From positions 2,047,010-2,111,009 of the forward strand of contig CP051235.1 in assembly GCA_017794705.1 (NCBI GenBank): 64,000 nt of DNA, read 5' to 3'. Below, piece after piece: positions 8,927-14,032 of the stretch. A program made the position numbers and the translations under genes. Position 1 is the first letter of the stretch. Each line of letters starts with the position of its first letter. The notes under the pieces were generated by a model that was given only the letters and a program-made list of their open reading frames with translations, did not search any database and was not told the DNA's origin. Source of the stretch: Devosia sp. Its GTDB lineage: Bacteria; Pseudomonadota; Alphaproteobacteria; Rhizobiales; Devosiaceae.

Positions 8927-11900
8927 GTGTCTAGCAACCAAGAGCCTTCCGGCCAGACACAGATAATCGACGACAATCTGGTGCGCGCGCTTTCGGCCAT
9001 GCCGGTGGGCGCCGTACTGATCAATGCCGCGCGCGACACGGTCGTGTGCAACGCCGATTTCCTGCGCCTGCTCAACCTGCCCGAAACGCTGGCCCGCGTG
9101 CCGATGTCGACCGACGAGTTCGGGGCGCAGCTGGCCGAACACACGTACCAGAGCAATGATGCCGGCGGCATCACCAAGCATTTGCGCGGTATTCTTGCCG
9201 GGGTGGAAGTCGGCCCGCGCCGGCATTTCGCCACATGGATCAACGGCCGCAAGACCATCATCGAAACGGTGGGCACCGACGGGCTGATCTGGATGTTCGT
9301 CAAGGAACAGCTCGACGAGGTGACCTCGAAGCGCAATGAGGCCCAGCTGGTGGCGGCGGTGGAGAACATCGGCCAGGGGCTGGTCATGCTCGACGGGCAC
9401 CGGCGGGTGGTGGTGTGCAATACCGATTTCGCCCGGCTCTACAATCTGACCGAAAACCAGATGGTCCGCGGCACGCGGTTTGCCGAGATCGAAGGCACGG
9501 AAGCCGAGCGCGGTGTGGTGATCGAGCCGGTCGAGGATTTCTTCGACCAGCCGCATCAGGTCAATCTCGGCTGCGACCCGGAGGCCGACAATTGCTTCGT
9601 CGAACGGGTCAACGGGCGGCTGATCCGCGTGTTGATCAAGACCTTGCCGGATGGCGGTTCGGTGTCCACGCATCTCGACATCACCGACCAGGTCGAGCAG
9701 AATCTCGACAAGGCGAAAAAGCAGGCCGAGATCGAACAGCAGCACATGCGGCTCGACGCCACTGTCGACGCCATTCCGCACGGGCTGGCCATGTTTGATG
9801 CCGAGCACCGGCTGGTGGTGTGCAACGATGCGTTCATCGACATCAACCGGCTCGATGCGGAACTGGCGGTCCCCGGTGCCAGGCGCGACGACCTGATTGC
9901 CAATTCCAACAAGAACGGCTTTGCCGCTACCGGCCAAAGCGAGCAGTATTTCCAGGCCCGGGCCGAAGCGATCGCCGCTGGAAAGCCGGTGATCTCGCAG
10001 GTCGAACTGACCGACGGCCGGTCGATCCTGGTCGGTCATCACCCCACCTCGGACGGGGGCTGGGTTTCGTTCCATCAGGATGTGTCGGAACTGCGTGCCA
10101 AGCAGGCGCTGGTCGAAAGGCGCTCCGAGGAACTCGAACTGCACAATCAGCGCTTCAAGGCGGCGATCAACAACATGGCCCTGGGGCTGGCCATGTTCGA
10201 CGGCGAAAAGCGCATGGTGGTGTGCAACGAGCCGTTCGGCGCGCTTTACCACCTGCCCGACCACCTGTGCCAGCCGGGCACGCATTTCCACGATATCCTG
10301 CGCCACCGCGCCTCGATCGGCATGATTGGCGACGATGCTGAAATCGAGCCCCTGATCGAGCAGCTGGACAAGGTGATCGCTGCCGGTGAGATGCGCCGCG
10401 ATACGATCCACATGAAGACCGGGCAGATTTTCGACATCCTCCATCAGTCGCTGCCGGACGGCGGCTGGGTCGCCACCCACCAGGACATCACCGAACAGAA
10501 GCGCAGCGAACAGCTGATCGCGGAAAGCAATGCCGAACTTCAGCGCCAGCACATGCGGTTCACCGCAGCGGTCGGCAACATGACGCACGGGTTGTCCATG
10601 TTTGATGCCGAGCGCAAGCTGGTGATCTGCAACGAGGCCTATGCCGAACTTTACGGTCTGCCTGTAGAACTGACCCGGCCGGGCACCAGTTTCTGGGACA
10701 TGCTCGATCATGGCGCGCAAAGCGGCATGGTTTCCATCGCCGATGCCGCCGAGCGCCGCCGGGTGCTTGAAGATGTGATCAACGAGGCCAAGCCGGTGCG
10801 CGGGCCGGTGCGCATGGTCAATGGCCGGGTCATGCAGGTACTGCATCAGCCGACAGCCGACGGCGGCTGGCTGGCCACCCATGAAGACATTACCGAAGAG
10901 CACAACAGTGCCGAACTGATCGAACACATGGCCCACCATGATCCGCTGACCGACCTGCCGAACCGGCTGTCGTTCTCCGAGCGGCTGGAGCGGGCGGAAG
11001 CGCAGATCCGGCGCGGTGACATCCTGGCTCTGGTCTGCCTCGACCTCGATCACTTCAAGGAAGTCAATGATACGCTCGGCCATAGTTACGGTGATCGCGT
11101 GCTGCAGGAAGTGGCCCGGCGCATCAATGTCACCAAGCGCGAAAGCGAATTCGCGGCGCGCATGGGCGGTGACGAATTCATGCTGCTGCTCGGCCCGCTG
11201 GAAAAACCGCAGCACGCGGCCACGGTGGCGCAACGGCTGATCGACGCGATCAGCGAACCGATCGAACTGGACGGTCATCTGATTTCGATCGGCACCTCCA
11301 TCGGCATTTCGGTGGCGCCCGAAGACGGGACCGATGGCGAAACGCTGATGCGCAACGCCGACCTGTCGCTCTACCGTGCCAAGGCGGAAGGGCGCGGCAA
11401 CTATTGTTTCTTCGAGCAGGGCATGGATGCCCAGATGCAGGAACGCCGCAAGCTCGAGAGCGGCATGCGCGATGCTCTGGCCAAGCAGGATTTCACCCTG
11501 GCCTTCCAGCCGCTCCTTGATCTCAACAGCAACCGGGTCAGCGGCTTCGAGGCGCTGTTGCGCTGGACGCATCCGGAACTGGGCGTGTTGCCGCCTTCAA
11601 AATTCATTCCGATTGCCGAGGAAACCGGGCTGATCGTGCCGCTCGGGCGCTGGGTCATGCGCACCGCCTGCGAAGTGGCCGTCAACTGGCCCGAACATGT
11701 CCACGTCGCGGTCAACCTGTCGCCGGCCCAGTTCAAGGACAAGCGGCTCGTGCAGTCCGTCGCCGACATTCTGGAGGCCACCGGGCTTGCCGCCGACCGG
11801 CTGGAACTGGAAATCACCGAAAGCCTGCTCTTGCAGAACGCCGAGGGCAATCTCAAGGTGCTGCACGAACTGCGGAAAATGGGCGTACGCATTTCCATGG

Positions 11901-12250
11901 ATGATTTCGGCACCGGCTATTCGGCGCTCAGCTACTTGCGTTCTTTCCCATTCGACAAGATCAAGATCGATCGCTCGTTCATCGGCGACATTTCCAGCCG
12001 CGACAATAATGACCTGGTCAGCGCGGTGATCGGGCTGGGCAGGAGCCTCGGCGTGATGACCACTGCCGAGGGCGTGGAAACCGAACTGCAGCTCGATATC
12101 GTGCGCGAAAATGGCTGCTCGGAAGTGCAGGGCTTTTTGTTCTCGCCGCCGCTTCCCGCTTCGGCGGCCACCGAACTGTTGCAGGTCACCGAGGCCCGCG
12201 CCGCCGAAATGGCCGGTGTGCTCAAGAAGGAAGGGTCCTCGCGCAACTAG
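8927..12250 (+). CDS. Multi-PAS diguanylate cyclase/phosphodiesterase (GGDEF-EAL)
   Basis: This 1107-residue protein probably makes and/or degrades cyclic di-GMP under control of several sensor domains. Five related PAS units span roughly residues 20-135, 142-260, 270-395, 405-530 and 535-660; the last four end with a similar Asp-Gly-Gly...Asp-Ile-Thr/Val segment (PAS_7-like). The GGDEF domain begins near 670, with an intact GGDEF at about 747. The inhibitory I-site, normally RxxD five residues upstream, reads Arg-Glu-Ser-Glu. The EAL domain has Glu-Ala-Leu at about 875, the Asp-Asp-Phe-Gly-Thr-Gly-Tyr-Ser loop and the Lys-Ile-Asp-Arg-Ser segment, so it looks catalytically complete. No membrane segment is visible. 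GTG 8927 fits the protein's N-terminus. Confidence 0.9.
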   Translation: MSSNQEPSGQTQIIDDNLVRALSAMPVGAVLINAARDTVVCNADFLRLLNLPETLARVPMSTDEFGAQLAEHTYQSNDAGGITKHLRGILAGVEVGPRRHFATWINGRKTIIETVGTDGLIWMFVKEQLDEVTSKRNEAQLVAAVENIGQGLVMLDGHRRVVVCNTDFARLYNLTENQMVRGTRFAEIEGTEAERGVVIEPVEDFFDQPHQVNLGCDPEADNCFVERVNGRLIRVLIKTLPDGGSVSTHLDITDQVEQNLDKAKKQAEIEQQHMRLDATVDAIPHGLAMFDAEHRLVVCNDAFIDINRLDAELAVPGARRDDLIANSNKNGFAATGQSEQYFQARAEAIAAGKPVISQVELTDGRSILVGHHPTSDGGWVSFHQDVSELRAKQALVERRSEELELHNQRFKAAINNMALGLAMFDGEKRMVVCNEPFGALYHLPDHLCQPGTHFHDILRHRASIGMIGDDAEIEPLIEQLDKVIAAGEMRRDTIHMKTGQIFDILHQSLPDGGWVATHQDITEQKRSEQLIAESNAELQRQHMRFTAAVGNMTHGLSMFDAERKLVICNEAYAELYGLPVELTRPGTSFWDMLDHGAQSGMVSIADAAERRRVLEDVINEAKPVRGPVRMVNGRVMQVLHQPTADGGWLATHEDITEEHNSAELIEHMAHHDPLTDLPNRLSFSERLERAEAQIRRGDILALVCLDLDHFKEVNDTLGHSYGDRVLQEVARRINVTKRESEFAARMGGDEFMLLLGPLEKPQHAATVAQRLIDAISEPIELDGHLISIGTSIGISVAPEDGTDGETLMRNADLSLYRAKAEGRGNYCFFEQGMDAQMQERRKLESGMRDALAKQDFTLAFQPLLDLNSNRVSGFEALLRWTHPELGVLPPSKFIPIAEETGLIVPLGRWVMRTACEVAVNWPEHVHVAVNLSPAQFKDKRLVQSVADILEATGLAADRLELEITESLLLQNAEGNLKVLHELRKMGVRISMDDFGTGYSALSYLRSFPFDKIKIDRSFIGDISSRDNNDLVSAVIGLGRSLGVMTTAEGVETELQLDIVRENGCSEVQGFLFSPPLPASAATELLQVTEARAAEMAGVLKKEGSSRN

Positions 12251-12336: not shown

Positions 12337-12351
12337 TTAACACCCTGTTAA
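12337..12351 (+). promoter_or_regulatory. Candidate CtrA box (TTAA-N7-TTAA)
   Basis: TTAA at 12337-12340 and TTAA at 12348-12351 are separated by exactly seven bases, a perfect match to the core motif of the alphaproteobacterial response regulator CtrA. The site is also an inverted repeat, TTAACA-CCC-TGTTAA. It lies 41 bases before the likely ATG at 12393, so it would overlap or adjoin the promoter. The match is seen directly; binding is inferred. Confidence 0.55.
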
Positions 12352-12392
12352 GCATGTTGATCCAGCCTGAGCGAAATTGTTCGGGTAACATC

Positions 12393-12875
12393 ATGCGCCA
12401 TATTGCAGTATCTTCAATAATTCCTGCCGTCTTTTACTTGTTGAGCTGCGCCGCTGCGCAGTCCCTGGATGTGGATTTTGACGGCACCGTCAGTTCGGTG
12501 TGCAGTCTCAGTCTCAGCACCAACGGCACAATGGCGCTCAGCGCCGACGGCACGGTGTTGGGGTCGGAGGAAAGCGGCGGGCTGGCCGGTGCGGTGCTGA
12601 TCCTTTCGATCGGCAGCAATACGATTGATGTCGCGGCGCCGGTTCGGGTCGGTGCCGATCCGGCGGGTTATGTCTCGACGGGAGAGGTGCTGGAAGTCAG
12701 CTACTCCGGTGCCAGCGGCCTCAGCGGGGTGTCGCAGGCCTATACGAGCGCGGACACAGATTTCGCCGCAAGCAACATACCGCTGTCGCTGCTCACGCTT
12801 CACAATCGCATCGTCAATGCCAACGGGTTTGCCGCGGGCAGTTATGCCACCCGCACGGTGGTGACATGCAGTTAA
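12393..12875 (+). CDS. Secreted beta-rich protein, cassette gene A
   Basis: I do not recognise a named family. From ATG 12393 the product is about 160 residues with a clear signal peptide (Met-Arg-His then a hydrophobic core, Ala-Ala-Ala-Gln-Ser cleavage region). The mature protein is rich in Gly, Ser, Thr and Val, has a Cys in a Val-Cys-Ser-Leu context near its N-terminus, and ends Val-Val-Thr-Cys-Ser, suggesting a disulfide tying the ends. It is paralogous to the next gene: both share Asp-Gly-Thr-Val-Leu-Gly-Ser near the front and Gly-Phe-Ala-Ala-Gly near the end. The pattern recalls pilin or spore-coat-U-like subunits, but that is inference. The frame is open from 12306; the upstream extension lacks signal-peptide character. 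Confidence 0.7.
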   Translation: MRHIAVSSIIPAVFYLLSCAAAQSLDVDFDGTVSSVCSLSLSTNGTMALSADGTVLGSEESGGLAGAVLILSIGSNTIDVAAPVRVGADPAGYVSTGEVLEVSYSGASGLSGVSQAYTSADTDFAASNIPLSLLTLHNRIVNANGFAAGSYATRTVVTCS

Positions 12876-13306
12876 ACGTTCTCCGCCTGATCCTGGTGCT
12901 ACTGGCAGGTTTGTTCCCCGCGCCCTCCCGTGCCTGCACGCTGGCGCTCGGATCGGGCGGAACCCTTGGACTTTCAATGGACGGTACGGTGTTGGGATCG
13001 CAGGAAAGTGTGGGCGCGCCCGCGTCGCTGACGCTGGTGACGGGGCTTTTCGACGAAGTGACGATCAGCGCCCCTACCCTGATCTCGGCCCCCGCCGGCT
13101 ACCAACAGGTGAGCCAGGTTCTGGAGGTCGCCTATTCCGGGCTCGGCGTGCTGTCGGGCGTTGTCCAGCCCTACACGGGATCGGTGACGCAGTTCAGCCC
13201 GGGCGTGGTTCCGCTCTCGGTGCTCAATATTCATAGCCGGATCACCAACAGCGCCGGATTCGCGGCCGGCAATTATGCCGTGCGGGTGGTGGTGACATGC
13301 AGTTGA
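12866..13306 (+). CDS. Secreted beta-rich protein, cassette gene B (paralogue of A)
   Basis: The 146-residue product has a signal peptide (Met-Gln-Leu-Asn then a Leu-rich core, cleavage before Cys-Thr-Leu). The mature chain starts with a Cys and, like gene A, ends Val-Val-Thr-Cys-Ser. Similarity to gene A runs along its length, including Asp-Gly-Thr-Val-Leu-Gly-Ser, Val-Leu-Glu-Val and Gly-Phe-Ala-Ala-Gly, so the pair arose by tandem duplication. Its ATG lies inside the last codons of gene A with a ten-base overlap, implying coupled translation. An extracellular fibre or coat subunit is a reasonable guess only. Confidence 0.7.
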   Translation: MQLNVLRLILVLLAGLFPAPSRACTLALGSGGTLGLSMDGTVLGSQESVGAPASLTLVTGLFDEVTISAPTLISAPAGYQQVSQVLEVAYSGLGVLSGVVQPYTGSVTQFSPGVVPLSVLNIHSRITNSAGFAAGNYAVRVVVTCS

Positions 13307-13716
13307 GCATCAGGTTCACCCTGTGCGTACTGGCCGGGGCAGTGCTCGGGCTGGCGCTGGGGCTGGCGACAGGCGACGCCGAGGCGCAGTCGCTGTCACC
13401 CATGCGGCATCAGGGGGTGACGCCGAGCGAGATCAAGGGCTTCCGGCTGGAGGTCGGCAATCCCTATTCAACCAGAATGAGGTTCGCACTTATTGCCATG
13501 GACCCTTCGTTCACCCGCGAAGTCGGCGACGCCAGTGTTACCCCGGCCGAACTGATCCTGGCGCCCGGCGTGCGCCGCACCATCATTCTGGCCTTCAGAA
13601 TTCCAGCATCGCAAATGGAGAGGACCATTGGCCTATGCGTCGTTCCCACCAACATCGAGGGCCCGGTTCAGCCCCGTGTTTGTGGCACTTACACTGGCAC
13701 TTTGCTCACCCGTTGA
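13297..13716 (+). CDS. Exported Ig-fold protein resembling a fimbrial chaperone domain, cassette gene C
   Basis: The 139-residue product has a signal peptide ending near Asp-Ala-Glu-Ala-Gln-Ser. The mature part has a pattern like the first domain of PapD-type periplasmic chaperones: a Val-Gly-Asn-Pro-Tyr strand, a Thr-Pro-Ala-Glu-Leu-Ile-Leu-Ala-Pro-Gly strand, an Arg-Arg-Thr-Ile strand, then Ile-Gly-Leu-Cys-Val and a second Cys. It is too short for a two-domain chaperone and no usher gene is adjacent. It overlaps gene B by ten bases at a junction almost identical to the A/B junction. The chaperone-like fold is inferred from pattern only. Confidence 0.62.
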   Translation: MQLSIRFTLCVLAGAVLGLALGLATGDAEAQSLSPMRHQGVTPSEIKGFRLEVGNPYSTRMRFALIAMDPSFTREVGDASVTPAELILAPGVRRTIILAFRIPASQMERTIGLCVVPTNIEGPVQPRVCGTYTGTLLTR

Positions 13717-14032
13717 GGCGGCTGACGGCATCCTGTTGCCGCCTGCACCGATCGGACCGGGCGGCGAGGATTCCATCACCACCTCGCAAGGAGTGAAATG
13801 CTCACAGTCGATCAACTCGAGTGCCGGCTATCTCGACGTCGGCGTCGCGGCCGGCGGCGGCCTGAACCTGGGCACCAGTTCGCTCAACGCCCAACCCACA
13901 ACCCTGGGTTACGCCCGCGTCGTCATCCCCCTCGGCACCCCACCCAATCGCCTCGACTGCTCGCGCCTCTACGAAATGGAAATCGAACGGCTGCAGCGCG
14001 AGATCGAATTGCTCACCATCGGGCTGGAGTAG
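13628..14032 (+). CDS. Exported protein with charged C-terminal helix, cassette gene D
   Basis: The product of 134 residues starts at TTG 13628, preceded by a strong GGAGAGG ribosome-binding site, and overlaps gene C by 89 bases. The N-terminus has a basic segment, a Phe-Val-Ala-Leu-Thr-Leu-Ala-Leu core and a Val-Glu-Ala-Ala cleavage region, so it is exported. The mature part has Cys in a Val-Lys-Cys-Ser context, a Tyr-Leu-Asp-Val-Gly-Val strand, a second Cys in Leu-Asp-Cys-Ser-Arg-Leu-Tyr and a terminal Glu/Arg/Leu-rich amphipathic helix that could form a coiled coil. I do not recognise the family. Last gene of the four-gene unit. Confidence 0.65.
   Translation: MAYASFPPTSRARFSPVFVALTLALCSPVEAADGILLPPAPIGPGGEDSITTSQGVKCSQSINSSAGYLDVGVAAGGGLNLGTSSLNAQPTTLGYARVVIPLGTPPNRLDCSRLYEMEIERLQREIELLTIGLE

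Follow-up and report, generated by a model that had tools for sequence, protein, structure and literature searches.

Introduction

Chaperone-usher pili, exemplified by the CsuA/B–CsuC–CsuD, Fim, and Pap systems, are produced from operons of exported proteins that include a PapD-type chaperone domain. Their subunits carry an N-terminal strand with an alternating hydrophobic pattern, and the C-terminus of each subunit coincides with its last strand. In alphaproteobacterial DUF4402 pilin loci, a PapD-type chaperone likewise accompanies a small, exported protein resembling pilins, and a large divergent usher-like protein is encoded as well. In the loci L114–L118 and L145–L148, which are of this type, the PapD-type chaperone is accompanied by an usher-like protein of approximately 930–1110 aa that the PF00577 profile overlooks. 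Donor-strand fibers assembled without an usher are also known, namely TasA/TapA of Bacillus (PMC10151520), archaeal threads (PMC9715654), and bundling pili. The TasA/TapA fibers and the archaeal threads are made by cells that possess no outer membrane. TapA, which acts as a chaperone-like starter (PMC10151520), is a V-set immunoglobulin (Ig) protein and provides the donor strand from its own N-terminus.

Here, we analyzed a 64,000-nucleotide stretch of a Devosia sp. genome (hereafter, the window), which contains a cassette of four genes, denoted as A–D. The cassette shares with chaperone-usher systems the PapD-type domain, the operon of exported proteins, and subunits with the N-terminal and C-terminal traits described above. 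In contrast to those systems, no usher was found, the chaperone consists of one domain instead of two, and A and B show no detectable profile match to the SCPU or fimbrial families. The Cys residues near both mature ends of A and B and the extra protein D further distinguish the cassette. It differs from the DUF4402 loci, in which the chaperone is larger and the large usher-like protein is present, and A has no profile match to DUF4402. No sequence relation to TasA/TapA or the archaeal threads was found, and C is PapD-like, unlike TapA. D belongs to a family known from phages; unlike those phage proteins, bacterial D sits in a chromosomal cassette preceded by a CtrA-type box. Since an usher and a two-domain chaperone were searched for and not found, we do not claim membership in the chaperone-usher pathway. 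Instead, we propose with moderate confidence that A–D make up an assembly system of their own, which is chaperone-assisted, relies on donor strands, and dispenses with an usher.

Organization of the cassette

The original prediction described a perfect TTAA-N7-TTAA motif 41 bases before four overlapping genes, each encoding a signal peptide. The coordinates and overlaps were confirmed (Table 1), and signal peptides are plausible on A, B, C, and D according to a crude rule. The A/B, B/C, and C/D overlaps amount to 10, 10, and 89 nt, respectively. Between the end of the box and the likely start codon of gene A, the ATG at 12393, there are 41 nt. A second ATG in the same frame, at 12354, is also possible but is an unlikely start on a box-driven transcript, because it is only 3 nt away from the box. 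At the A/B and B/C junctions alike, the sequence reads ..GTGGTGACATGCAGTT(A/G)A, and this likeness is consistent with B being a tandem copy of A. The overlapping stop-start sequence GTGGTGACATGCAGTTRA is common to positions 12860–12880 and 13291–13311 of the window.

Table 1. Positions of the cassette and its neighboring gene in the window
Feature	Position	Strand	Remarks
CtrA-type box TTAACACCCTGTTAA	12337–12351	+	motif match; conserved before A in related loci
Gene A: pilin-like subunit, predicted to be exported, whose N-terminal extension resembles a donor strand	12393–12875	+	start uncertain
Predicted donor strand of mature A, QSLDVDFDGTVSSVC	12459–12503	+	alternating hydrophobic pattern
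Gene B: A paralogue lacking the N-terminal extension; Cys is the first residue of the mature chain	12866–13306	+	
Gene C: half chaperone, predicted to be exported; one PapD-type N-terminal (Ig) domain	13297–13716	+	
Gene D: small protein of the phrog_37374 family, predicted to be exported; TTG start at 13628	13628–14032	+	
c-di-GMP enzyme, PAS_7 (5 stretches)-GGDEF-EAL; neighbor, probably outside the cassette	8927–12250	+	

Neither A–D singly nor all members of their alignments matched a family in Pfam or NCBIfam, apart from stray hits. A PDB sequence search with the cassette proteins returned nothing meaningful, and a search of a literature collection found no account of the A–D cassette. No match to a described pilus or coat family turned up.

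Distribution and genomic context

The cassette, arranged as A–B–C–D or A–C–D, is present in 11 of 136 genomes of the same family, including that of the window. Scanning named bacterial genomes with the D alignment yielded 128 relatives, 80 of which were fetched. These loci derive from Devosia, Cucumibacter, many Mesorhizobium, Nitratireductor, Aminobacter, Chelativorans, Aurantimonadaceae, and sphingomonads. The A–C–D order holds in all 80 loci, which were fetched through D as the bait. The position of B varies: in Devosiaceae it separates A from C, in Phyllobacteriaceae it follows D, and Cucumibacter and the sphingomonads have no B. In nearly all loci, C overlaps D in a different reading frame, the overlap commonly measuring 31 to 95 nt. 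The compactness attributed to the cassette recurs, and both the gene order and, in Hyphomicrobiales-type loci, the CtrA box are retained in relatives. Since the order, overlaps, cysteines, and box all recur, the cassette is more than a chance arrangement. A class-wide survey with the D profile gave a match in only 2 of 385 genomes, indicating that the cassette is patchy at the class level, and D was found on none of the plasmids searched. Gene A or C looks frameshifted in two Mesorhizobium loci (L070 and L094), reflecting either sequencing error or decay.

Clustering of the neighboring genes revealed no further gene that travels with the cassette across groups; the other widely common clusters are reverse-strand frames of the cassette itself. 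In Devosiaceae, the cassette occupies a common chromosomal neighborhood extending from argininosuccinate synthase to TypA. The gene preceding the box in the window indeed encodes a c-di-GMP enzyme, as had been noted from its sequence (Table 1). This PAS_7-GGDEF-EAL gene lies upstream of the cassette in the window and downstream of D in some Devosia; the downstream position occurs in L031, L032, L036, and L040, the last assigned by sequence likeness only. It was not seen as a common neighbor in the Mesorhizobium or sphingomonad loci examined. We rejected the enzyme as a general part of the system, given that its adjacency is confined to Devosiaceae, where the side differs.

CtrA box upstream of gene A

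Across the alphaproteobacteria, the TTAA-N7-TTAA motif is known to function as a CtrA site (PMC9437464, PMC11264516). TTAACACCCTGTTAA is its sole exact occurrence in the window, where 0.02 would be expected. The 3.3-Mb genome contains 26 exact sites, compared with 36 for a reversed control pattern. As the motif is not enriched genome-wide, the meaning of the box rests on its conservation and not on its rarity. Among 55 non-redundant loci of the Hyphomicrobiales type, an exact box was located upstream of A in 26 (0.5% in shuffles), a box with at most one mismatch in 46 (9.5% in shuffles), and the TTAACCA half-site in 41 (1.7% in shuffles). The Hyphomicrobiales box often takes the form TTAA-N7-TTAACCAT. 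The spacing of 7 stands out upstream of A, while other spacings are close to zero except for 12, which stems from loci sharing a third TTAA. The box is absent upstream of A in 8 non-redundant loci of the sphingomonad type or other types. The genome also carries a ctrA orthologue, whose product is 83% identical to a Caulobacter CtrA query. The conservation of the box at the exact spacing in Hyphomicrobiales, together with the presence of ctrA, supports the CtrA-type control proposed originally. CtrA probably activates the cassette; its predicted binding and the putative cell-cycle timing are suggested by the conserved site and the ctrA gene.

Pilin-like proteins A and B

A and B were described as paralogues with cysteines at both ends of the mature chain, and the present comparison agrees: they are 49% identical, with one Cys near the mature N-terminus and another located 1–3 residues from the C-terminus. 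Both chains end right after this last Cys. Mature A begins with VxFxGxV-x3-C, a pilin-like donor-strand pattern, and the motif of classical pilins is closely similar. An N-terminal pattern alternating in this way is also seen in archaic pilins, which use it to polymerize (PMC4654587). The mature A chain usually has 12–16 residues ahead of the first Cys. In 35 non-redundant A proteins, the residues at positions −10, −8, and −4 relative to this Cys are hydrophobic in 97, 100, and 100%, respectively, and position −6 is Gly in 77%. Ahead of the Cys of B there are usually 0–5 residues and hence no donor strand. Because A carries a donor-strand-like extension and B does not, these sequence patterns suggest that A could be the polymer-forming subunit and B the cap.

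The model of A (pLDDT 96.2) leaves residues 1–13 without regular structure. Its best PDB matches are chaperone-usher pilin domains, although the similarity is weak (best E 0.016, TM 0.45). The A profile showed no significant match to the SCPU pilin profile or to the DUF4402 pilins (profile-profile E 0.3), and a PF14352 search of the A and B members matched 1 of 39 (E 0.0037). In a viral fold library, a single match for A fell below E 0.001, and it corresponds to an unnamed viral protein. The lack of a significant SCPU or DUF4402 profile match, combined with fold matches that are weak only, argues against a donor-strand assembly of the pilus type.

Half chaperone C and small protein D

C had been characterized as Ig-like and chaperone-like, and both traits are borne out by its AlphaFold2 model (pLDDT 95.6), which adopts one PapD-type N-terminal domain. 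The best PDB matches of the model are PapD, FaeE, Caf1M, DraB, and CsuC, with query TM values mostly of 0.68–0.75. The C profile also matched real two-domain chaperones of other alphaproteobacteria with 95.5% probability and an E of 1.6e-8. This match covers the chaperone N-terminal domain only, and C stops where that domain stops. The mature protein is a single domain of approximately 109 residues, and chaperone domain 2 is missing. Two invariant Cys residues are placed in the last two strands, and FGL chaperones have a disulfide at the matching place. Arg79 of C is similar to Arg89 of CsuC, but we do not claim the two as counterparts, because they are offset by one residue in the profile alignment. 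Known chaperones use their inter-domain cleft, which the half chaperone C does not possess, and this also counts against the main reading.

The C-terminal amphipathic helix ascribed to D was recovered as a conserved heptad-like helix, and the protein contains two invariant Cys residues. All 27 D proteins tested match phrog_37374 (best E 1.7e-14), a family of phage proteins without assigned function. The comparisons revealed no relation of D to chaperones, pilins, or the viral proteins V1 and V6 described below. D, the bait of the search, is present wherever the A–C core was found, and it is therefore a speculative candidate for an outlet or anchor.

Phage copies of the A–C–D core

Scanning IMG/VR with D yielded 86 relatives, 80 of which were kept, and located A–C–D on marine viral contigs. 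Clustering of these 80 loci (L149–L228) assigned D to 79, C to 75, and A to 71. The viral gene order is V1–V2–A–C–D–V6, in which V1, V2, and V6 are viral-only. These three are exported or membrane proteins without assigned function and occur in about 66–68 of the 80 viral loci; relatives of V1 are found in pelagiphages, roseophages, and Achromobacter phages. Comparison of viral with bacterial profiles gave agreement for A (E 4e-9), C (E 7e-12), and D (E 6e-28), and the donor-strand motif is present in 24 of 27 non-redundant viral A proteins, compared with 1.3% in shuffles. In the T5-like Vibrio phage Thalassa, gp150–151–152 correspond to A–C–D (E 4e-14, 2e-5, and 2e-20, respectively) and are annotated merely as hypothetical. 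In the region 79132–107455 of Thalassa (L229), gp150–152 adjoin two proteins of approximately 820 aa, a spanin, a holin, and an endolysin. A D tree, built from few columns and with long branches, separates most viral rows from the bacterial ones, and its bacterial lineages follow the bacterial groups.

These copies raise the alternative that the cassette is a phage-derived module that alters the envelope of the infected cell, for example in superinfection exclusion or as a lysis aid, and that bacteria have domesticated it, for example for blocking phage adsorption. The A–C–D core on the 80 viral loci, the closeness of gp150–152 to the holin and endolysin in Thalassa, and the assignment of D to phrog_37374 would all fit such an origin. 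However, the Devosiaceae copies lie between argininosuccinate synthase and TypA in a common chromosomal neighborhood, the bacterial lineages follow bacterial groups and lie largely apart from the viral ones, and the bacterial copies carry the CtrA box. We consider this alternative quite unlikely. A further point against the main reading is that the phage copies may have a different purpose. A prophage origin of the window copy was rejected: its neighbors are housekeeping genes common with Devosia, and the viral partners V1, V2, and V6 occur in none of the bacterial loci.

Search for an usher

Ushers were excluded by sequence profiles only, namely PF00577 and a profile of DUF4402-type ushers. 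PF00577 matched nothing in the genome of the window or in 13 of the 14 other cassette genomes; the remaining one (G337) has a match. Because PF00577 misses the ushers beside DUF4402 pilins, four of those were aligned and used as the second search profile. This profile gave full matches in its four source genomes and no match in all 15 cassette genomes. No usher or other outer-membrane channel was recognized in or beside the cassette, in line with the original description of a cassette lacking an usher. An ordinary chaperone-usher system, with an usher encoded elsewhere in the genome and too divergent to recognize, would explain the PapD-like C and the pilin-like A, and PF00577 does miss divergent ushers such as those adjoining DUF4402 pilins. 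Nevertheless, with both profiles negative in the genome of the window, a PF00577 match limited to G337 among the other cassette genomes, known ushers being co-encoded with their systems, and C lacking the second chaperone domain, we regard this explanation as very improbable.

The same negative result bears on another alternative, in which A, B, C, and D form a periplasmic or envelope oligomer between the outer membrane and the cell wall that is never surface-exposed; C would then be no chaperone but a permanent Ig domain with a structural role. Besides the lack of a recognized channel, all four proteins look Sec-exported only, C has no domain 2, and the phage core sits among exported and membrane proteins. 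In contrast, the donor-strand pattern of A and the absence of the N-terminal extension from B are traits expected of an open-ended, capped polymer, and a purely periplasmic oligomer appears unlikely to us.

Proposed mechanism and implications

For the usher-independent donor-strand assembly that we favor, the following sequence of events can be envisaged. Phosphorylated CtrA (CtrA~P) would bind the box and switch the operon on at a given stage of the cell cycle, as suggested by the site and the ctrA gene. The Sec pathway would then export A–D into the periplasm by means of their predicted signal peptides. There, C, whose single PapD-type domain is known from the modeled fold, may hold A and B. 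The A subunits would join head to tail, each inserting its VxFxGxV N-terminal strand into the next subunit, and B, as a strand acceptor but not a donor, would cap one end. D, a putative disulfide and helical-zipper protein, might speculatively serve as an anchor or outlet in the usher's stead. The product would most likely be a short fiber or a mesh, located within the cell envelope or on its surface, and its surface display is less certain than the donor-strand assembly. The original prediction of a surface fiber, coat, or adhesin is supported in part, namely in its CtrA-type control, compactness, chaperone-like C, and lack of an usher, whereas the exported surface product is putative.

It is conceivable, though we advance the idea only tentatively, that the cassette represents a new class of usherless Gram-negative donor-strand fiber, in which A is the pilin, B a cap with no donor strand, C a half chaperone, and D an outlet or anchor of oligomeric nature. 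These four proteins would be enough for building and positioning the fiber. Its core would have passed between tailed phages and the chromosomes of alphaproteobacteria, coming under CtrA control in the latter. If this is true, pilus-type assembly would need neither an usher nor a second chaperone domain, and donor-strand assembly, along with export, could be dissected in a minimal system of four (or three) genes. The phage gene trio labeled hypothetical would gain a testable function, and a cell-cycle-timed envelope structure would be named in Mesorhizobium, Devosia, and their relatives.
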